A DNA stretch of 40,055 bases, from NCBI GenBank assembly GCA_003671275.1, contig QWPB01000185.1:1-40055 (forward strand), given 5' to 3'. This document shows, piece after piece, positions 16,211 to 29,818 of this stretch. Each line of letters opens with the position of its first letter. Position 1 is the stretch's first letter. The notes beneath the pieces were generated by a model. That model was not told the DNA's origin. It saw only the letters and a list, made by a program, of their open reading frames with translations, and made no database searches. The position numbers were made by a program, and so were the translations under genes. Source of the DNA: Planctomycetota bacterium (GTDB lineage: Bacteria > Planctomycetota > Planctomycetia > Planctomycetales > Planctomycetaceae).

Positions 16211-18856
16211 GTGTGGCCCTTGGATCAAGCAGCACGTTACGAACTGCTGGAAAATCTCGGCACCGGGGCGTACTCGACCGTCTATCGAGCGCGTGACAAC
16301 GAGCTGGGGCGGGAAGTCGCCATTAAGGAGATTCACGCCGAGCAGCTGGGAGATACCCGCGCCAGTGATCGCTACTGGGCGGAAGCTCAGGTACTGGCGT
16401 CGTTACAGCATCCGCACGTCGTCACGATCTATGACATCGTCCGCAGTCGAGGGTGGCTGGTTCTGGAACTGATGCAGGCCAGCCTGCGGAATCGGTTGAA
16501 TGGTCGTCCGATGGATGTCCGGGCTCTGCGGACGACCCTGATTCATGCCCTCAAGGCTCTGAAATATCTGCATGCCAGGGGATTGATTCACAGCGACATC
16601 AACCCAGGCAACCTGATGATCGACCACCGCAAGCGGGTGAAGCTCGGCGACTTTGGCGTCTCGCGGGGGTTGGCCGCCATGGAAGGCGGAATCGGTCGCG
16701 GGACAGCCAAGTACATGGCCCCCGAGTCACTCGCGGGCAAGGTGTCCCAGATCGGACCGGCCAGCGACCTCTACTCGCTCGGGTTCAGCTGTTACGAACT
16801 GTTGTGCGGCGCGGGATTTCGGGATCTATTCCCGGGGCTCGATCTGAGTGATCCCCAGGCCGATGCGACCTGGATGATGTGGCATGCCGCCGCGGATCGT
16901 CGCCTCCCGCCGATCAGCCAGGTACTGGAAGGGGTTCCTGCCGATCTTGCGTCGATCATTGACCGTATGATTTGCAAAGATCCCGCCGCGCGGTATCAGT
17001 CGGCGGACGAAATTCTCGACCAGCTGGGGGAGAACACACACTCCACCGATCGTGAGTCCCAGCCGACAACGGGGCCCGAAGAGGCACTGCCGCTGAAGAA
17101 GCCACGCCCATGGGTGGTCGCATTTTGTGTGCTGTCGATGCTGATGTCGGTGGGGCTGTTGCTCCTTCCCACCGGACCAGCCCCCGATGCGGCTCCGCCG
17201 CCGGTGATCCATGGAGTCGTTCGCGGGGCCGATCTGAATCGCCGGGTGATTGAGATCGAAGATCCCCAAAACGGAGTTCCCGAAGAGTTCCCGCTTCCCG
17301 CGAAGCCCAAAATCCTGCTTCTGAAGTCGGGAGAGGCCGATCAGTTCATCCTGCCGCGGGATCTCGCAACGGGTGACTGGATCCAGATTCATCGCCCCGC
17401 TGACCCGCAAGGGGAGCCCACGTTCAGGGTCTCGCGGCCGGTATTGCAGTCCGGTGAATTGCGAATGATCGATCTGGCATCCCAGCGGGTGACCATTTCC
17501 ATCGAGTCCGGAAGATTGCGGGACGAAGTGGTCATGCTGGTCACTCCTCGTACCCGAATCACGCTGAACGAACAGCCCGCTCAGCTGGGCGAACTCCGTC
17601 CAGGGGATCAGGTAACAGTGGAGCATTTGCTCGATCCGACGGGACAGGCCGGCCAACTGGTCAGTCGATTATCCGCCACCCGAGGTGAAGAAGTCACCGG
17701 TTTCATTCAATCGATCAACGCCGCCAACCGTCAGATGGCTGTGGCGGCCCGCCGCATGGCAAAAGACGGGCGTCTGCTGACCCTGGCCCAGAACTGTTCC
17801 AGTCAGCTGTCGACCGGTGAGCCGTTGCCCTGGGATCAGATCCGCATCGGGGATCGAGTCCATTTGCGGGTCGATTCGCAGGTCCGCTCGGTGACCATCA
17901 CTCGCGGAGATTCCACGGAATCGGGACTGTTTGCGGGCTCCGGCGATGCCCCTCGAACGTTTCAAGTCGCCAGCGATGAGGGGCAGACCATGACCTTCGC
18001 ACTGGCGGAAACGGTCGATATTCGCCTGCACGGAGAACCAGCGACGCTCGACCAGCTGCGTGCGGTGCATGACCGTGTCACGCTGACCATCCGGGATGGC
18101 GAAGATGGCATGTCGCAGGTGACAGCGCTCGATGCTCAACGGGGAATGCGGCATAACCGCTGGGTCATTGTGATCGGTTGTGGTGCCTACAGCGATCCGG
18201 CTGTGAAACCAGTTCCACATTTTGCGACCGATGCTCGCACCCTGCATCAGACACTGACCAGGTTCTATGGGGTGGACCCCACCTGGAGCCAATTACTCGT
18301 CGATCCCGAGATTCAGACGGTGCGAGAAGAAGTCCCCGCCCTGTTATCGCGGGTCACCGAGCCGATGCAATTGATAGTGGCCCTCTTTGGCCACGCCTAT
18401 CGCAACAAGGACGGGAGAGTCTATCTGGCGTATCGCGACTACCGCTGGGACGATCCGGCAGGCAGCGGATTACCACTGGATAGCATTATCCAGGCCTTGG
18501 AGCGGTGTCCCGCGAAGGACAAGCTGCTGCTGCTGGACCTGGCCCCGGAAGGGGCTCCACCCGACGGGGAAGGGACTCTGGACCTGCCGCGGATGCTGGC
18601 AACGCTGACGGTCCCGCTGAAAACCCTGCGGATCATTGGGGCCTCATCCGAGGGGGAGCAAAGCGTGGCACTCGATGGTCAACTGCAAGGCTGGTTTGGT
18701 AGCGAGCTGTCGATCGCATATCGCGGTGCCGCAGACGAAGACCGCGATCTGACGATCACACCCGATGACCTGATGAAGCATTTGAATCAGGTAGCGTTCG
18801 ATGAGCAGTCGCACCGCCAGCAACATCCCTTTGAATGGGACCGCGAGACGCCCTGA
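16211..18856 (+). CDS. Ser/Thr protein kinase fused to a caspase-like (pseudo-protease) domain
   Basis: The protein has 881 residues from a GTG start. Residues 10-275 are a kinase domain: GTGAYSTV glycine loop, VAIK with Lys39, catalytic loop HSDINPGN (127-134), DFG (147-149) and APE (170-172). The usual HRD Arg and the catalytic-loop Lys are replaced by Ser and Asn. One membrane segment lies at about 300-320. Residues 335-640 are beta-rich and hold three or four modules with RPGDQVTV/RIGDRVHL/VHDRVTL motifs, like DUF5666-type barrels. Residues 650-865 resemble a C14 caspase: WVIVIGCGAYSD, FATDARTLHQTL, LIVALFGHAYRNKDG (His728), LLLLDLAPEG and ASSEGEQS. The catalytic Cys expected in the LLLDAC motif is Ala778. 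The caspase-like part is therefore outside the membrane and probably inactive. Function unknown. Confidence 0.85.
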   Translation: MWPLDQAARYELLENLGTGAYSTVYRARDNELGREVAIKEIHAEQLGDTRASDRYWAEAQVLASLQHPHVVTIYDIVRSRGWLVLELMQASLRNRLNGRPMDVRALRTTLIHALKALKYLHARGLIHSDINPGNLMIDHRKRVKLGDFGVSRGLAAMEGGIGRGTAKYMAPESLAGKVSQIGPASDLYSLGFSCYELLCGAGFRDLFPGLDLSDPQADATWMMWHAAADRRLPPISQVLEGVPADLASIIDRMICKDPAARYQSADEILDQLGENTHSTDRESQPTTGPEEALPLKKPRPWVVAFCVLSMLMSVGLLLLPTGPAPDAAPPPVIHGVVRGADLNRRVIEIEDPQNGVPEEFPLPAKPKILLLKSGEADQFILPRDLATGDWIQIHRPADPQGEPTFRVSRPVLQSGELRMIDLASQRVTISIESGRLRDEVVMLVTPRTRITLNEQPAQLGELRPGDQVTVEHLLDPTGQAGQLVSRLSATRGEEVTGFIQSINAANRQMAVAARRMAKDGRLLTLAQNCSSQLSTGEPLPWDQIRIGDRVHLRVDSQVRSVTITRGDSTESGLFAGSGDAPRTFQVASDEGQTMTFALAETVDIRLHGEPATLDQLRAVHDRVTLTIRDGEDGMSQVTALDAQRGMRHNRWVIVIGCGAYSDPAVKPVPHFATDARTLHQTLTRFYGVDPTWSQLLVDPEIQTVREEVPALLSRVTEPMQLIVALFGHAYRNKDGRVYLAYRDYRWDDPAGSGLPLDSIIQALERCPAKDKLLLLDLAPEGAPPDGEGTLDLPRMLATLTVPLKTLRIIGASSEGEQSVALDGQLQGWFGSELSIAYRGAADEDRDLTITPDDLMKHLNQVAFDEQSHRQQHPFEWDRETP

Positions 18857-21210: not shown

Positions 21211-22203
21211 CTATTTGCGGATCGGAATGACGTGGCGCTGGGGCGTCAGTGCGGGACGGATGTGGGGGCCGGACGCAGGACGACCAGCGGTTTGCAGTGC
21301 CCGTTCGCACAGCAGGGTACAGAACTCGGGAAAATCAATTCCGGCATGGGCTGCGGACTTCGGGGACAGGCTATGGTCCGTTAATCCGGGAATCGTATTC
21401 ACCTCCAGTACCCAGGGCTGACCGCTGGGGTCGACCCGCAGATCGACTCGCGACAATCCCGTGCAACCAAGAGCCTGCACTGCCTGCTGGGCAGTTATCA
21501 GGATGCGGTCGACCTGCGAGGCGGGGACATCCGCAGGAAATTCGTATGCGGTCTCATTGCACAGGTATTTGGCCTCATAGTCGAAGAATGCCCGAGCGGT
21601 CCCGATCCGAATGGGCGGCAGACACTCCTCGTCCAGCAGGGGGACCGTCCACTCTTCCCCGGAGATGGCCTGCTCCAACAGCCCCGTCACATCGAACCGC
21701 AGCGCGGCCGCTCCCACAGTCGGAACATCTTCTATCGACAAGGCAAAGCCGACGCCAATACTGGACCCCTGACGGTCTGGTTTCGCCACAACAGGCAGCC
21801 CCAGCTGTCGTGCGGCAGCCTGCCAGATTTCGGGAGAGTCACCCTGTCGAATGGGAGACCATGCGGGTGTTGGTACTTGATGTTTCCGGAACCGGATTTT
21901 GGCCCGGGATTTATCGAAAGCTAAAGCCGAAGCCAGGGGACCGCTGCCGGTGTACGGCAGGCCCACGGCATCCAACTGTTCCTGAACGGTTCCGTCCTCG
22001 CCATATCGACCATGGAGGGCGATAAAGGCCACGTCGAACCATTCGGCGTGAATGTGGGCAATGGTCTCGTCGAGCGGATCGCAGATCGAAACCGTATGGC
22101 CTGCCAGACGGAGCGCATCGCGGACGGCCCGCCCGCTGGCAATACTGATTTCTCGCTCGGCGGAAGGACCGCCTGCCAGCAGCAGGACACGCAGCGGACG
22201 CAT
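21211..22203 (-). CDS. ddl: D-alanine--D-alanine ligase
   Basis: ATP-dependent ligase that joins two D-Ala for peptidoglycan precursor synthesis in the cytoplasm. The protein has 330 residues from the ATG at 22203 (MRPLRVLLLAGGPSAEREIS). Upstream in-frame ATGs add 11 or 42 residues with no domain character. ATP-grasp features are clear: VAKPDRQGSSIGVGFAL, the Asp/Glu metal region RVDLRVDPSGQPWVLEVNTIPGLTDHSLSP, and the N-terminal HGRYGEDGTVQEQLD. It lies 134 bases downstream of the flhB-like gene on the same strand, so it may be read through from the flagellar operon. Its presence supports conventional peptidoglycan synthesis in this planctomycete. Confidence 0.93.
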   Translation of the reverse strand: MRPLRVLLLAGGPSAEREISIASGRAVRDALRLAGHTVSICDPLDETIAHIHAEWFDVAFIALHGRYGEDGTVQEQLDAVGLPYTGSGPLASALAFDKSRAKIRFRKHQVPTPAWSPIRQGDSPEIWQAAARQLGLPVVAKPDRQGSSIGVGFALSIEDVPTVGAAALRFDVTGLLEQAISGEEWTVPLLDEECLPPIRIGTARAFFDYEAKYLCNETAYEFPADVPASQVDRILITAQQAVQALGCTGLSRVDLRVDPSGQPWVLEVNTIPGLTDHSLSPKSAAHAGIDFPEFCTLLCERALQTAGRPASGPHIRPALTPQRHVIPIRK

Positions 22204-22337
22204 TGAGGGGGCGTCAACCCGATACCGTGGAGCCATGGGAAGCGGACCGCAAGCGACGGGGTCACGACGGTTCGAATGACAACTGGGCCAAACGAAACGC
22301 TCGCGGAGTTTAAGCCGCAGCGGGGTCATCGCGCGAC

Positions 22338-22988
22338 TTACTGCCGCCGTAGTTCGTCATCGGACATTCGCAAGGACTCAGTCCAGCGTTTCCGCCGCCC
22401 CCCGGCATCGAGAATCCCACAGAACAGGCAGAATCCGCCGATCGCCCCCATTCCGCGCGACAGCAGCTTCACACTCTGCCCTAACCAGGCTTGCGGATCA
22501 TCCAGACTTACCACGCTCCCCCAGTGGATCCAAGCCAGGCCCAACAGGCCAGCCAGCCCCAAACTGACACGCCAGCTCAGACCAACCGCGCGTTCTAGCG
22601 GGGCTGCCGGGGCCCACTGTGAAACCGTCAGTAGCCGACGGGGATGTGGAATTACAGTGACCGGGTGCCAGACCATTCCCACCTGTCCCAGATCCGCCAC
22701 CAGGGCCGCCACCAGACACGCTCCCAGCAGTCGCCCCACTTCGATCACCACGGCCTGCACAGAGGTCCCAAGCGAACCGCCGTCACGCACCGTCGACAGG
22801 TCGATCTGAAAGCTGCTGGCCATCAAGTCTTGCAGGGCTCGCAGCAGATTCGGAACGCAGTACGGCACGACCCACGCCGCGACCAGCAGGACAACCCCTG
22901 CCGTTAGTTCGGCACTGCGAGGTGAATACCCCATCCGACGAGCCTCGGCCATCCGTTGCCGATCCAGTGTGACAGGCGACTCGCTCAT
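22338..22988 (-). CDS. flhB: FlhB-type export protein lacking the cytoplasmic autocleavage domain
   Basis: The protein has 216 residues. Its ATG overlaps the fliR stop (ATGA), so translation is probably coupled. The N-terminus, RQRMAEARRMGYSPRSAEL, resembles the FlhB start. About four hydrophobic segments follow, then HPVTVIPHPRRLLTVSQW and the end of the FlhB membrane part, WTESLRMSDDELRRQ, which matches the LRMS-QEVK motif. The frame then stops. The cytoplasmic domain with the NPTH autocleavage site, normally about 140 residues, is absent, and none of the other frames downstream encode it. FlhB normally controls the export-substrate switch by NPTH cleavage. Either this role is missing or the domain is encoded elsewhere. 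Confidence 0.83.
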   Translation of the reverse strand: MSESPVTLDRQRMAEARRMGYSPRSAELTAGVVLLVAAWVVPYCVPNLLRALQDLMASSFQIDLSTVRDGGSLGTSVQAVVIEVGRLLGACLVAALVADLGQVGMVWHPVTVIPHPRRLLTVSQWAPAAPLERAVGLSWRVSLGLAGLLGLAWIHWGSVVSLDDPQAWLGQSVKLLSRGMGAIGGFCLFCGILDAGGRRKRWTESLRMSDDELRRQ

Positions 22989-23782
22989 GGGGATTGTTCC
23001 CCCGATACAGCCATCAACGAGGGTCTCAGCAGGCGGTCGAGTTCCGCCTCGACCCGCTCCGCATTCCGAGGAAGCAGAGCCCCCAGAAGGATCAGCGCCA
23101 GAGCTGCCCGGATCGGCGAGATGGCTTGCCCGAGAGGAATTCCCCAACTGCGGGAGAACATGGCCAACGCTCCCTGCAGCAAAATCTGCATCAGACAGAT
23201 CGGCAAGGCAATTCCCAGGGCCAGAAGTGATCCAGCCCGCATCCAGCCCACCATCAGGCTCACCCACTGATCGGTCGACGAAAGCGTCCCCAGCGGGAGG
23301 GCGATAAACGAAGCCCGGAGCGACTCAATCCAGGGCCCTTCAGCCCCCAGCGTCATGGTCAGCAGGAGCCATGATCCGATCCAGACCAGGAGTTGGGCCG
23401 TGCCTTGCATGTCCGCATCTGCAGGGGTGTCCAGAACCGGTTCAGCGGTAAGTCCCGTACTGGTTTGTTCATCGATCCAATTGCCGGCTGACCGCAATGC
23501 AGTGAGCACGAATCGCATCCCCAGTCCCAGCAAAACTCCACTGAGCAGTTCACCCAGAACGGAGCCCCCTGTCAGTGTGACCTGGGGATGTGCCGGCACG
23601 GTGGCCGCCAACGGCCAGGCAATGACGAGAGCCATCGCCAACCGGGCCCGCCAGGGAATCACTCCCGCCCCGGCAAAGGGGCACGCCAAGACCATTCCAC
23701 TCAGCCGACACATCGCCAGACCCGTCACCACCCATTCGGGAGGCAGCATTCCGGAAACGTCCATGGCCAGCGGGAGAATCAT
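22985..23782 (-). CDS. fliR: Flagellar export component FliR
   Basis: The protein has 265 residues and about six hydrophobic segments. Matches the FliR/SpaR family: RLSGMVLACPFAGAGVIPWRARLAMALVIAW, then LGLGMRFVLTALRSAGNWID and the late ALPICLMQILLQGALAMFSRSWGI. It forms the membrane core of the flagellar type III export gate with FliP and FliQ. It starts 64 bases after fliQ and its stop overlaps the flhB-like start. Confidence 0.9.
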   Translation of the reverse strand: MILPLAMDVSGMLPPEWVVTGLAMCRLSGMVLACPFAGAGVIPWRARLAMALVIAWPLAATVPAHPQVTLTGGSVLGELLSGVLLGLGMRFVLTALRSAGNWIDEQTSTGLTAEPVLDTPADADMQGTAQLLVWIGSWLLLTMTLGAEGPWIESLRASFIALPLGTLSSTDQWVSLMVGWMRAGSLLALGIALPICLMQILLQGALAMFSRSWGIPLGQAISPIRAALALILLGALLPRNAERVEAELDRLLRPSLMAVSGEQSP

Positions 23783-23817: not shown

Positions 23818-23846
23818 GCCACCCACCCTGGTGGCAGAGGGTGGGT
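23818..23846 (-). promoter_or_regulatory. Two mutually exclusive hairpins between fliQ and fliR
   Basis: ACCCACCCT (23821-23829) pairs with AGGGTGGGT (23838-23846). GCCACC (23818-23823) pairs with GGTGGC (23830-23835). The first stem uses bases of the second, so both cannot form. The fliQ stop codon starts at the 23846 end. The arrangement resembles an intercistronic attenuator or a mRNA-stability hairpin; that role is inference. Confidence 0.35.
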
Positions 23847-24100
23847 CAGTGACGGGTCAATGCCTCACGGGTAAATTCTCCCAGTCGGTCAACCATCCAG
23901 GGCAGAAAGTACGCCAGTGCCAAGCCCCCCACCAGCAGGCGGGGAATCGTGGTCAACGTCGAATCCTGAAGCTGCGTCGAGGCCTGAAACAGGCTCACCA
24001 GACCACTGGAGATGAGCAGGCAGCATAACATCGGTCCGGCGATCACCAGGATCGTCCAGATCGACTGACTCAACAGGTCGATTCCGATCTCGGGAGACAT
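23846..24100 (-). CDS. fliQ: Flagellar export component FliQ
   Basis: The protein has 84 residues, typical for FliQ, with two hydrophobic segments (ILVIAGPMLCCLLISSGLVS and LVGGLALAYFLPWMV). The pattern LFQASTQLQDSTLTTIPR matches the FliQ cytoplasmic loop (Q-TQ-Q-TL). Its ATG overlaps the fliP stop in TGATG. It is part of the FliPQR export gate. Confidence 0.9.
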   Translation of the reverse strand: MSPEIGIDLLSQSIWTILVIAGPMLCCLLISSGLVSLFQASTQLQDSTLTTIPRLLVGGLALAYFLPWMVDRLGEFTREALTRH

Positions 24101-24825
24101 CAGACACTCACACTTTGAAGCAACATTCGCACCGTCAACGCCCAGCCATCAATCGACACGAACACCAGCAGCTTGAGCGGTAGCGATACCCACAGCGGGG
24201 GTAACGTCGACAACCCCATGCCTGTCAGCAGTGACGAGACGACCAGATCAATCACCAGAAACGGCAACAGAATCTGAAGGCCGATCAGGAACGCGACCTG
24301 CAACTCGCTCAGGACGAACGCTGGTAACAGGACACTGAGCGGCAGATCTTCGAAATACTGCGGGGCGGCCCCCTGGCCCTGACTGTCCCGCGAACGCAGG
24401 AACAGCGACACGTTGCGTTCGTTTCCGGCAGCCTGCAATTGCTGCACCATGAACCGTTTGAGGGGGTCCATGCCACGTTGTACCGCGTCTCGCAGGCCGG
24501 CCCGCTGGGCGTCGAGATCGGGGTAGCTGGTTCGCTGATAGGTCTCGATTCCATCGTGATAAGCGGTCTCCCAGACGGGAGCCATCACCGCGATCGTCAG
24601 CATCAACCCCAACCCGGTTATCACCTGATTGGGCAGATACTGACTGCCTCCCAGGGCCTGCCGCAAAAGCCCCAGGACGATCGCAAACCGCATCCAGCAG
24701 GTCGTCAGCAGGAAAATCGAGGGCAACAGCCCGATGATACTGAAAGCCAGCATCACTTGCACGGAGGAACCCACGCCGGCTGGTCCCAGCCAGCTGGCCG
24801 GAATCCAGCCTGTCCAGTCAGACAT
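24100..24825 (-). CDS. fliP: Flagellar export component FliP
   Basis: The protein has 241 residues. FliP motifs: ARG-like RFAIVLGLLRQALGG, LPNQVITGLGLMLTIAVMAP, the VLLPAFVLSELQVAFLIGLQILLPFLVIDLVVSS core, and LPLKLLVFVSIDGWAL. Unlike many FliP proteins it has no obvious cleavable signal peptide; its first membrane segment is LAFSIIGLLPSIFLL. It overlaps the fliO end by 8 bases and abuts fliQ. It forms the FliP5 core of the export gate. Confidence 0.92.
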   Translation of the reverse strand: MSDWTGWIPASWLGPAGVGSSVQVMLAFSIIGLLPSIFLLTTCWMRFAIVLGLLRQALGGSQYLPNQVITGLGLMLTIAVMAPVWETAYHDGIETYQRTSYPDLDAQRAGLRDAVQRGMDPLKRFMVQQLQAAGNERNVSLFLRSRDSQGQGAAPQYFEDLPLSVLLPAFVLSELQVAFLIGLQILLPFLVIDLVVSSLLTGMGLSTLPPLWVSLPLKLLVFVSIDGWALTVRMLLQSVSV

Positions 24826-25570
24826 CGCTCACCTCCGGAACAGCACGGGGAGGTGGTGTTGCCGTGGCTCGGGACACCGGACTGGTCGAGAAAGTGGCTC
24901 CCGCGAGCGGTGTGGAGCCCTCGGTTCGCCGCGAACGAAACAGATCGAGTACGGTCGGTCCCATCGCCGTTCCGACAGCAGGCCGCAGATCCTGCAACAG
25001 TTGGACCGCCTGTTCCGGATCGGTGACCTGAGCGAGAGTGGTCATGCTGGCCGGAGTCGCACCAATCAGCAGCACCTGCTGACCGAGTCGCACCAGAATC
25101 AGCTGTTGCTGAGAACCGATCGACTGTCTCGAAAGCAATTCCAGGGGACTGGTGGTCGCCATGCGCAGTGGACCGCTTGCCTTGAAGTAGCGTGTCCCGG
25201 CCCATCCCGTCAGCAGCAGTCCCGCGATCCACCACATCGTGGTTCCGATGCGGGATGGTGTGATCGGCGGTATCGATTCCGGGGCAGTCTGATCCCAATC
25301 AGGCAGTGGTGTCTTACTTTTTGCGGAGGTCTGAAATGAGTGCCCCGCCATTTCGGTCCCGGAATTCTCGGGGAGATTCGAAAGTGGGGAATGACGCGAT
25401 TCCGGACGATCCACGGAACCGAAGGCTGACTCGGGCTCAACGTCCGGATAGAACGGCGAGGGACGCCCGGAAGGTGTCACCGCCTCCTCGGCAGCGCTGA
25501 CCCCAGAACTCCAGGTCACGAGCCACCCAATAACCAGCAGCCATCGAGGCAATCTCCGGAGAACGCACAT
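24818..25570 (-). CDS. fliO: FliO-like flagellar biosynthesis protein
   Basis: The protein has 250 residues from the ATG at 25570, which has GGGAGGG about 8 bases upstream; an ATG eight codons earlier is possible. The N-terminus is a signal-like segment (LLVIGWLVTWSSGVSAA). A disordered, Pro/Ser-rich stretch of about 80 residues follows. A second membrane helix (IGTTMWWIAGLLLTGW) is followed by the FliO core: ATTSPLELLSRQSIGSQQQL, then ILVRLGQQVLLIGATPA. The last 50 residues are low-complexity. FliO helps FliP assemble. Position directly before fliP supports the call. Confidence 0.8.
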   Translation of the reverse strand: MCVLRRLPRWLLVIGWLVTWSSGVSAAEEAVTPSGRPSPFYPDVEPESAFGSVDRPESRHSPLSNLPENSGTEMAGHSFQTSAKSKTPLPDWDQTAPESIPPITPSRIGTTMWWIAGLLLTGWAGTRYFKASGPLRMATTSPLELLSRQSIGSQQQLILVRLGQQVLLIGATPASMTTLAQVTDPEQAVQLLQDLRPAVGTAMGPTVLDLFRSRRTEGSTPLAGATFSTSPVSRATATPPPRAVPEVSDV

Positions 25571-25637
25571 CCCCGAGCCCTCCCTGGCCGGCATCTGGCG
25601 AGCTACCTTTGACCATGCGCATGCATGATTCGGACGG

Positions 25638-27163: not shown

Positions 27164-29818
27164 ATGCCCACTGGCCTTCCCAAGTCGTCTGAAGTCATCC
27201 CACCACGCTCGGCGTTTGGTTTTGTGCGCCCACTGCCCACAGCTCGCACGGATGAGACCGCAGCCGAAGCCACACGTCTGGTGTCGGTTCCCCGCGAACG
27301 TGATCGCTGGGACCGGCTGTTCCCGAGTACCGCCGGTCTCAATGAGCCTGGGTCGTCCTATCAGGTCAATGGACTGCAGTTCGGCAACTACATTATTCAG
27401 GAGCGAATTGGCCGGGGCGGCATGGGAGCGGTCTTTCGGGCTGTCGACATCCGTCTCGACCGGGTGGTCGCACTCAAGGTGCTGGCCCCGGAATACACCC
27501 GCGACCCGGCTTCGGTGCAACGTTTTCAGAACGAAGCCCGGGCTGCCGCAAAACTCGATCACGATACCATCGCGCGCGTCTTTTCCTCGGGCGAAGACAG
27601 TGGGCAACAGTATATCGCCTTTGAATATGTGGCCGGAACGAACCTGCGTGAGATGATCCAGAACCGGGGGAGTCTGACTGTTCCCGAAACAGTGAGCATT
27701 CTCCTGCAGATGGCCGATGCCCTGCGGTATACCAGCGCCGCGAATGTCGTCCATCGCGACATCAAGCCCTCGAACATCATTGTGACAGCCGCCGGACGCG
27801 CCAAACTGGTTGATCTGGGCCTGGCGCGGCAAACACAGCTGCCCGGGGAGGAACTAACGGTCCACGGGACGACTCTCGGCACGTTTGACTACATCTCACC
27901 GGAACAGTCAGTCGACCCGCGAAATGTCGACGTTCGCAGCGATATCTACTCGCTGGGCTGCACGGCCTATCACATGCTAACGGGGGAACCTCCCTATCCG
28001 CAGGGCACGATGATCCAGAAAGTTATGGATCATCACGCCATGAAGATGCCCGACCCTCAAGCCAAAAACCCACTGGTTCCCCTAGTGCTGTCGCGGATCA
28101 TCCAGAAGATGATGGCCAGTCAGGTCGAGGCCCGTTATCAGCGTCCCGAAGACCTGATTCGCGACCTCACACCCCTGGCCCAGGCTTACGGCATCGCGAT
28201 CCGCCCCGGAGAGTTGAATTCGCCGAGTACCACACGCTGGTCCTGGTCCGAGTTTCGCGGGTGGATTCTGGCGGCAGGGATCTTGCTGGCGGTGGGGGTT
28301 CTCGCCAGCTGGCCGCCGACTGAGCCCCAACCCACCTCTTCCCCTGAGCGCCCCGCGATGGAGCTGGCCGCTGTGGCCGCGATTCCGCCCGCCGCAGAAG
28401 CGCATCGCGCGGCCACCGGAGGAGGGACGAACGATTCACCCTCCGAGAGCCCCGCTGTCGACCACTCGGTAGTGGGTGGTTTTAAGTCGGGAGCCATCTG
28501 GGGCAACAACAACGTGTCAGCCGCACCTGTCCTGGGTCAGCTGGCCACAGTGGGTAGCAGTGGCAGCCGAATGACCAGTGAGGGGCCCTCGCCGACAGCC
28601 AGCCCGCCGATTGAGGAGAATCGGTTCTGGATCGCCGAATCGGCCTTGGGGGAAGCCCATGGGGATCAGGAAAAATCCTATCCAACACTGGAGGCCGCCT
28701 GCCTGGATGCACCAGACAACTCGACCATTGAACTGCGTTACGACGGGGCCGCCCCACCACAGCGACCGATTCGGATCGAGGGCAAATCGCTTCGCATCCG
28801 GGCCGAGTCCGGTCGTCGTCCGACGCTGACATTTGAGGCCCCCGGGGTGGTCGGACTGTCGGTCACGCCACAGATGATTACCGTAACTAGCGGCGGGTTG
28901 ACGCTGTTCGATATCGACCTGATATTTCGAGTGCCTCGCGGGCGGGCTGCCAATCGCTGGAGCCTGTTCTCTCTACAACACGCCAAGAACCTGACGCTCC
29001 GGGGCGTCTCAGTGACCCTGGAAAATGCGCAGCGGCAGCAGCCGGCAACGGTCTTTGAGATTCGTTCCGCATCGGCCACGGGTACGGATCGGTTGATGCC
29101 GGATGGCATGATGAAGGGGCCGATTCAGATTCAGATTTCGCAGTCCATCTTTCGGGGTGAGGCGGATGGATTTCGGATGGACGAGTCGATCGAACTACAG
29201 GTTGATATGTCCCACGTGGCATGGGGACTCGCAGGAGTGCTGATCGGGATCGATACCCGGGAACGAGTTCAGATGGCCACCATGTCCGAACCGGTTGCCG
29301 TGCGGGTGGTGCTAAATAACGTCACCGCCGTACTGGAAAACGGCCTGGCACAGATGACCGCCGGAGAGGCCCTGTCGGCTCCCGTGCTGCGAGTGGAAAG
29401 CGAGAACTCGCTGATCTCGATGCTGCGAGCGGATCAGGCACTGGTCACCATGAGCGGGCCACTGGAGATGCGTGACTGGCAGGAGCGGCTTCACTGGCAA
29501 GGGAGCCACAATTATCTGGACGTGACCGGCTCCTGGTGGGAAATCTCCGCTCAGCGATCACTGTCGATGCCCAATCGACGCTACAACGCCGCCGACTGGG
29601 ATCTCCAGTGGAACAGCATGGGGGGGACGATCATTGATCGCAATGTCTACGAGTCCAGCGAACCCTGGGAGAACGCCGTCTTCCATGAAATCGAGGCCGA
29701 GGCGTTCCACCTGTACTCGCAGCCCGGCGTCTATAAGGCCCCCGAAGGTGCGGACGGACGACACGCGGGGATCGACTGGTCCCAGCCTCGCTTGCCGAAG
29801 CGGTTTCCCGATTTGTAA
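27164..29818 (+). CDS. Transmembrane Ser/Thr protein kinase with beta-helix-like extracytoplasmic domain
   Basis: The protein has 884 residues. Residues 1-70 are a low-complexity lead. The kinase domain spans about 74-340: GRGGMGAV glycine loop (83-90), Lys105 in VALKVL, HRDIKPSN (197-204), DLG (217-219, in place of DFG) and a SPE motif (245-247). It resembles PknB-type kinases. A membrane segment at about 366-383 (GWILAAGILLAVGVLASW) is followed by a Pro/Ser-rich linker. From about 500 the sequence resembles a parallel beta-helix: TIELRYDGAAPPQRPIRIEG, SLRIRAESGRRPTLTF, LTLFDIDLIF, LTLRGVSVTLE. That kind of domain usually binds polysaccharide. It is probably a surface sensor. The start has no clear ribosome-binding site. 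Confidence 0.85.
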   Translation: MPTGLPKSSEVIPPRSAFGFVRPLPTARTDETAAEATRLVSVPRERDRWDRLFPSTAGLNEPGSSYQVNGLQFGNYIIQERIGRGGMGAVFRAVDIRLDRVVALKVLAPEYTRDPASVQRFQNEARAAAKLDHDTIARVFSSGEDSGQQYIAFEYVAGTNLREMIQNRGSLTVPETVSILLQMADALRYTSAANVVHRDIKPSNIIVTAAGRAKLVDLGLARQTQLPGEELTVHGTTLGTFDYISPEQSVDPRNVDVRSDIYSLGCTAYHMLTGEPPYPQGTMIQKVMDHHAMKMPDPQAKNPLVPLVLSRIIQKMMASQVEARYQRPEDLIRDLTPLAQAYGIAIRPGELNSPSTTRWSWSEFRGWILAAGILLAVGVLASWPPTEPQPTSSPERPAMELAAVAAIPPAAEAHRAATGGGTNDSPSESPAVDHSVVGGFKSGAIWGNNNVSAAPVLGQLATVGSSGSRMTSEGPSPTASPPIEENRFWIAESALGEAHGDQEKSYPTLEAACLDAPDNSTIELRYDGAAPPQRPIRIEGKSLRIRAESGRRPTLTFEAPGVVGLSVTPQMITVTSGGLTLFDIDLIFRVPRGRAANRWSLFSLQHAKNLTLRGVSVTLENAQRQQPATVFEIRSASATGTDRLMPDGMMKGPIQIQISQSIFRGEADGFRMDESIELQVDMSHVAWGLAGVLIGIDTRERVQMATMSEPVAVRVVLNNVTAVLENGLAQMTAGEALSAPVLRVESENSLISMLRADQALVTMSGPLEMRDWQERLHWQGSHNYLDVTGSWWEISAQRSLSMPNRRYNAADWDLQWNSMGGTIIDRNVYESSEPWENAVFHEIEAEAFHLYSQPGVYKAPEGADGRHAGIDWSQPRLPKRFPDL

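Follow-up and report, generated by a model that had tools for sequence, protein, structure and literature searches.

Self-cleavage of FlhB is taught to be a general feature of protein export in both flagella and injectisomes. In the flagellum, the C-terminal cytoplasmic domain of FlhB docks the subunits of the rod and hook and, once cleaved at its NPTH site and read by FliK, turns export to the proteins of the filament. Published work describes docking of early subunits by this domain (PMC8983047) and its part, after self-cleavage and together with FliK, in mediating the switch to filament proteins (PMC7911332); the membrane part is described as wrapping FliPQR and integral to the gate, and FlhB as a whole as indispensable to type III secretion of every kind (PMC7064499). 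What, then, is an export gate doing with an FlhB that has no switch domain? The question is raised by a planctomycete genome, where, on the reverse strand of the window (the whole stretch of 40,055 nucleotides analysed here), flhB (22338..22988) encodes the N-terminal, membrane half of the protein only, 216 amino acids with the C-terminus LRMSDDELRRQ.

The gene runs as an open reading frame (ORF) from an ATG at 22988 to a TAA at 22340-22338. FlhB residues 11-215 correspond to positions 10-217 of the 335 in the PF01312 profile (E=2.6e-17; 63.5 bits against a cut-off of 24.4), so that the N-terminal four-helix membrane domain is present, and the ORF stops at profile position 217, leaving the C-terminal cytoplasmic domain with its NPTH self-cleavage site absent. 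As read from the sequence, the start of flhB and the stop of fliR share four nucleotides (ATGA), and flhB adjoins fliR in an export-gate operon with fliO-P-Q-R upstream, all on the reverse strand: fliR (22985..23782; 265 aa; PF01311, E=3e-28), fliQ (23846..24100; 84 aa; PF01313, E=1.2e-21), fliP (24100..24825; 241 aa; PF00813, E=4e-59) and fliO (24818..25594; 258 aa; PF04347, E=5.3e-10). The downstream neighbour on the same strand, a D-Ala-D-Ala ligase ORF (21211..22329; PF07478, E=6e-45; start and stop codons checked), is outside the export system but marks its boundary; because it begins 8 nt past the flhB stop, a C-domain of about 110 residues cannot fit there. No FlhB C-domain was found when six-frame segments of 15 aa or longer from the window and from 34 truncated-FlhB loci were searched with a C-domain profile of 18 rows (HMMER --max), a search in which 4 of 4 control loci scored. 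A sequence-only reading of this locus had described an intact gene overlapping fliR, a match to the four-helix half of FlhB followed by a stop, and no NPTH domain that a frameshift might have hidden downstream, and all of this is borne out here. The ordinary flagellar gene order that it reported holds for fliOPQR-flhB and goes no further, the flagellar query set having picked up no further flagellar gene in the window. Two large ORFs of the window (16211-18856 and 27164-29818) have N-termini that by eye resemble Ser/Thr protein kinases, the genes for which are common in planctomycetes.

A sequencing or assembly error at the stop codon would be conceivable in a draft assembly of 198 contigs, but the truncation recurs in many other genomes, and this recurrence takes the place of read support at the stop. 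Among the 170 family genomes examined, 142 of which have a PF01312 match, at least 41 carry an FlhB that stops short of the cleavage site, its end falling at profile positions 216-254. At least 29 genomes have only such an FlhB, namely the window's own, its genus-mate G002 (likewise truncated, profile 8-216) and 27 among the matches listed, and at least 12 further genomes pair a truncated copy with a full-length FlhB. Two Pirellulaceae loci among the named contigs, L152 and L169, are truncated as well. On a profile of full-length relatives, where the NPTH asparagine is position 269, 37 truncated proteins end at 225-271 with a median of 259 (a count that leaves out L001 and L002, duplicates of the window and of L033); the window FlhB is the shortest of the 37, its end falling inside the linker, and the end of L047 projects two positions past the cleavage site, yet the protein has no NPTH. 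The comparison with related planctomycetes that the sequence-only reading had proposed gave a divided answer: a full-length FlhB stands behind fliR in related genera, and the genus-mate G002 is truncated too. The truncation is therefore derived and fixed in the lineage rather than an error, and with no C-domain remnant in any frame we give an artefact at the stop codon practically no credence.

The history of these losses was approached through a tree built from the membrane half of FlhB (114 rows; near-copies, duplicate loci, rows below 30 bits and some contig-cut rows were left out, and L135, cut by a contig end, was retained as 'full'). Truncated copies sit among planctomycete FlhBs, with the window's copy and that of G002 joining (100/99) inside a group of 16 truncated copies (98/96). 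Six state changes are needed, at least two of them forced by supported branches; the C-domain must thus have been lost independently at least twice, the exact number of losses being unsure because the branches are long. In genus g16 (G055, L069), the C-domain is present with the cleavage motif TDGLA instead of TNPTH, and rod genes, flagellin and FliI are again absent. FlhB of this type is likely an intermediate, in which the site is gone, the domain is decaying and the axial genes are absent. C-domains with a degenerate cleavage motif are encoded at L069:7606-8697 (G055; TDGLA) and at L154:7878-8981 (TNGMA).

The NPTH motif is, as far as we know, called highly conserved. Many full-length planctomycete FlhBs read NPTE and some NPTQ, NPVH or NPEH (loci with such motifs include L004, L005, L011, L014, L015, L016, L133, L134, L141 and L145). 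Two genomes, G094 and G153, combine an NPTE FlhB with rod/hook and flagellin genes, and a flagellum may therefore function with NPTE. A separate arrangement is seen in several genomes, e.g. at L037, L067, L068 and L109 (G143) and in others of g52, which have two type III sets each: an ordinary flagellar set with a full FlhB beside flhA, and a reduced planctomycete set with a truncated FlhB. In some g52 genomes (L053-L057, L063, L064) the truncated flhB is separated from fliOPQR and lies close to a conserved gene for some 128 aa (L053:6305-6703 and its kin).

The missing domain could also be encoded elsewhere and act in trans, a split FlhB having been one of the explanations offered by the sequence-only reading. 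A protein of 953 aa from G081, whose own FlhB is truncated, gives this idea some substance: encoded at L118:3794-6655 (contig C265), it has a zinc-ribbon-like N-terminus, a coiled coil and a detached domain like the FlhB C-domain (PF01312, 29.1 bits against a cut-off of 24.4) in which NPNS replaces NPTH. However, G078, a congener of G081, gives no C-domain match at E<=1, and a profile search of the window's own genome found only one PF01312 protein, the window FlhB. The genome-wide search for a separate C-domain, which the earlier reading had recommended, returned a best match of E=0.012 that sits within a secretin and was taken as chance, whereas the same search recovered all 14 of the 14 full-FlhB genomes at E<1e-38. 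An FlhB divided between two genes is thus a very improbable explanation for this locus.

The remaining suggestion was that an ordinary flagellum uses some other mechanism to pass from hook to filament. Its flagellar gene order speaks for it, and so do two regulators: a sigma-54 activator adjoins fliF (L090:10614-12074), and a sigma-70-family factor, sigma-28-like by its place, adjoins flhA (L074:13461-14237). Since both are retained, the export set is probably still regulated. Against this, the genome, a draft that is 99.2% complete, yielded no match to rod/hook proteins (PF00460; 15 of 48 genomes were positive in the same search), flagellin (PF00669; 16 of 48), the FliG motor domain (PF01706) or FliM/N (PF01052), and no FliI above the TIGR01026 cut-off of 379.5 bits. 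Hook-to-filament switching therefore has nothing left to do, and we find a flagellum with a novel switch scarcely believable.

What the genome keeps is the membrane part of an export apparatus. The search for flhA, likewise recommended beforehand, found a single full-length copy (C69:11039-13024; 728 bits) whose motifs KFVRGDAIAG, LTIGDGL and RLVLNVASTR are all intact; these are the charged motifs of the ion path, a role described in Salmonella. FliF is a single divergent copy running into a contig end (C99:16330-16809). Homologues of SctJ, R, S, T, U and V are all present as FliF, FliP/Q/R/FlhB and FlhA, and those of SctQ and the ATPase SctN are absent, most reduced relatives keeping both. 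A secretin gene of this genome (G000) lies on a different contig from the window (C163). In G001 and G002, whose assemblies are only 66-71% complete, no fliH or fliI follows fliF and neither genome has FliI above the cut-off. The FliF of G002 has a trace of the FliG middle domain at E=0.0017, below the cut-off, and the window's genus shows no more than this. In several reduced systems, at L060:3-1619, L051:1-1794 and other fliF stretches, FliF and the FliG middle and C domains are encoded in one open frame. Clustering of the ORFs around the reduced loci brought up export genes, the sigma-54 activator, the flhA-adjacent sigma factor and a scatter of other genes, with no obvious conserved cargo neighbour.

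The association between the FlhB C-domain and the rest of the flagellum was followed in 48 of the 170 family genomes, a non-random sample of draft assemblies picked to cover all classes. It comprises 25 genomes with truncated FlhB only (G163 and G164 being assigned to the truncated class by score only), two with a degenerate full-length FlhB (G053, G055), eight with both forms, six with full-length FlhB only and seven with no clear FlhB (G001, G023, G044, G069, G123, G131 and G133, with weak PF01312 matches in G044, E 2e-5, and G069, E 1.5e-6). Rod/hook genes are found in all 14 genomes whose FlhB is intact and full-length versus 1 of the other 34 (Fisher p 3e-11, uncorrected for kinship), and flagellin in 14 of 14 versus 2 of 34 (Fisher p 2e-10, again uncorrected for kinship). 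The exceptions are G024, which is 79% complete and has a truncated FlhB, four flagellin-type matches and no rod match, and G116, where rod/hook and flagellin genes are present and the search recovered no FlhB other than a truncated one. Contig C53 of G116 carries a second, ordinary FliF with FliG, FliI and flagellin, and the assembly probably misses the flhA-flhB contig of this second flagellum, because the congener G110 has both.

Within the truncated-only class, FliF and FlhA are retained in all 25 genomes, FliN/M in 22, FliI above the cut-off in 20 and the FliG C-domain in 19, where the copy of G116 belongs to its other flagellum; in several genomes, e.g. G025, G169 and G081, the FliG C-domain shares an open frame with FliF. 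Gene order points to the path of reduction. The flagellated G026 has RR-flgB-flgC-fliE-fliF-fliG-fliH-fliI-fliJ-fliK-flgD-flgE-motA-motB-fliL-fliN-fliO-fliP-fliQ-fliR-flhB in one cluster (flgB-flgC, fliF, fliG, fliI, fliN and flhB named by family matches, the remaining genes by order, reading by eye and similarity to G098). In G169 and G025 the operon is reduced to fliF(with FliG domains)-fliH-fliI-fliJ-fliN-fliO-fliP-fliQ-fliR-flhB(truncated), and compared with G026 it is the axial, ruler and stator genes that are missing. Queries from G026 and G098 for FlgB, FlgC, FliE, FliK, FlgD, FlgE, MotA, MotB and FliL found none in 54 reduced or degenerate stretches, a search covering the stretches around the systems.

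These genes might nevertheless be functionless leftovers of a lost flagellum, from which the C-domain of FlhB was the first part to go. Such decay is the main rival to a working gate and is strongest for the window's own genus, where loss has progressed to FliI, FliN/M and FliG_C, and where FlhB is only 40% identical between the window's genome and G002 as against 72% for FliP. The ratio dN/dS is 0.12-0.39 in eight pairs of truncated flhB from several genera, raised values (0.29, 0.39) occurring in some pairs, against 0.05-0.12 in four pairs for the corresponding half of full-length FlhB. Judged by these ratios, truncated flhB is under purifying selection, somewhat relaxed, which tells against mere decay. 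In the comparison of the window's genome with G002, flhB is saturated for synonymous change and dS not computable, yet flhB, fliR, fliQ and fliP of the two align as open frames. The full-length FlhA with intact motifs, and the persistence of FlhA with FliF throughout the truncated-only genomes of the sample, also argue against a relic, which we hold to be unlikely.

The predicted structure is in keeping with a gate protein. An AlphaFold2 model of the truncated FlhB (pLDDT 84) shows the long helical hairpins, and its best Foldseek match in the PDB is 6s3l_K, the FlhB of a FliPQR-FlhB complex (probability 1.00, E=0.0029, TM 0.57/0.63; VIA Z 9.2 over 180 residues, rmsd 5.0), which is also the only match spanning most of the chain, the other rows being unrelated helical proteins. 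Gly20, Ser25, Gln102 and Asp194 are invariant in 22 aligned FlhBs. Asp194 aligns with LD(Y) of helix 4 and, by our reading of the alignment, would be equivalent to D208 of Salmonella FlhB, mutation of which is reported to harm motility (PMC7064499). The window's genus has not preserved the otherwise conserved R-x-NP-x-x-G-x-x-R stretch in the gate-wrapping loop, and this loss of NP-G-R argues for some functional change there; together with the divergence of FlhB, the lost loop stretch makes weakened function or decay possible in this genus. A bypass of the P28T type, at a position presumably equivalent to that of Salmonella FlhB, was considered for the lineages without FliI and set aside: the window has Pro and the other relatives lacking FliI have Ala, Pro, Thr or Val, by eye, with no pattern.

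On balance, we think it likely that the locus is the inner-membrane export gate of a former flagellum, now part of a non-flagellar machine, in which FlhB has shed its switch domain and kept the half that clasps the gate. Which genes are kept and which are lost is observed directly in this genome and its relatives. In the proposed mechanism, FliPQR would form the gate, with FliO as its assembly factor and FlhB as its clasp. With neither rod/hook cargo nor a second substrate class, the C-domain would have been left without a task and lost, and the membrane half would have stayed because it wraps FliPQR. FlhA would recruit any remaining cargo and the proton motive force would drive its transport, as the ion-path motifs of FlhA are kept and the ATPase is gone in the lineage; the putative destination is the periplasm, reached across the inner membrane. 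From this gene content we infer a gate with a single mode, addressed through FlhA. Export without the ATPase, on proton motive force, is possible according to one study (PMC4230889). In Campylobacter jejuni lacking FlhB-C, a hat structure and the flagellar complex both retain FlhA densities (PMC9380563), and truncation is therefore not bound to destroy the gate. Against such a gate stands the description of FlhB as a whole as essential (PMC7064499), and in the literature read we found no demonstration that a gate whose FlhB is the membrane half alone can export.

The same observations in Campylobacter lead to another reading, in which the core complex serves as a membrane platform, of the nanotube or 'hat' type, and not as a protein exporter. 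FliO/P/Q/R, FlhA and FlhB are the flagellar core complex and exactly the retained set, and that complex has been linked to membrane nanotubes and to a hat related to the flagellar type III system that persists without FlhB-C (PMC9380563, PMC7064499). But FliF is retained too, and most relatives keep FliH, FliI and FliN, which fits export better, and we rate a platform of this kind as distinctly unlikely. The export gate remains our preferred reading, and a broader form of it can be put forward with more reserve, at somewhat less than an even chance: that several reductions of the flagellum in planctomycetes may have led to a machine of FliF, FlhA, FliOPQR and the FlhB membrane half (here minus ATPase and sorting platform) acting as a proton-driven, single-mode, FlhA-addressed inner-membrane exporter, the FlhB C-domain being dispensable for type III export itself and required only to dock rod/hook subunits and to switch.

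A minimal type III gate has long been postulated as a stage between flagella and secretion systems, and these planctomycetes would offer living examples of one. They amount to a natural experiment, performed no fewer than two times: the switch domain vanishes with the rod, hook and filament genes and the gate is conserved, which separates two jobs of FlhB, gate clasping and substrate docking or switching. They also indicate that matches to fliP, flhA and flhB are insufficient ground for calling such planctomycetes flagellated. We found no description of a planctomycete FlhB without its switch domain, or of a flagellin-less export set, in the literature searched, outside which most subscription journals lie.

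Among known systems, the window's protein resembles flagellar FlhB (PF01312) in its membrane half, its place behind fliR and a predicted fold like 6s3l_K, and differs in having neither the NPTH site nor the C-domain and in a genome without rod, hook or filament genes. The C. jejuni deletion of FlhB-C is alike in that FlhA densities remain (PMC9380563), but it is a laboratory mutant of a flagellate, whereas the planctomycete truncation is natural and recurrent. The non-flagellated Lysobacter enzymogenes has likewise kept flagellar export genes without a flagellum, and its FT3SS-like genes are described as still functional; unlike the present case, flhB and fliI are required there both for twitching and for exporting a test flagellin (PMC7277350). 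The nearest precedent is the needle-less and secretin-less type III systems of Myxococcales, the 'Myxo' T3SS of Abby and Rocha (2012), which have a type III core without FlgBCDEK, FliE, FliG and MotAB, and for which those authors propose protein translocation without delivery into host cells (PMC3459982). The Myxo systems belong to the non-flagellar T3SS clade (PMC3459982), whereas the window's set derives from a planctomycete flagellum and, in its genus, has additionally dispensed with FliI and FliN/M.
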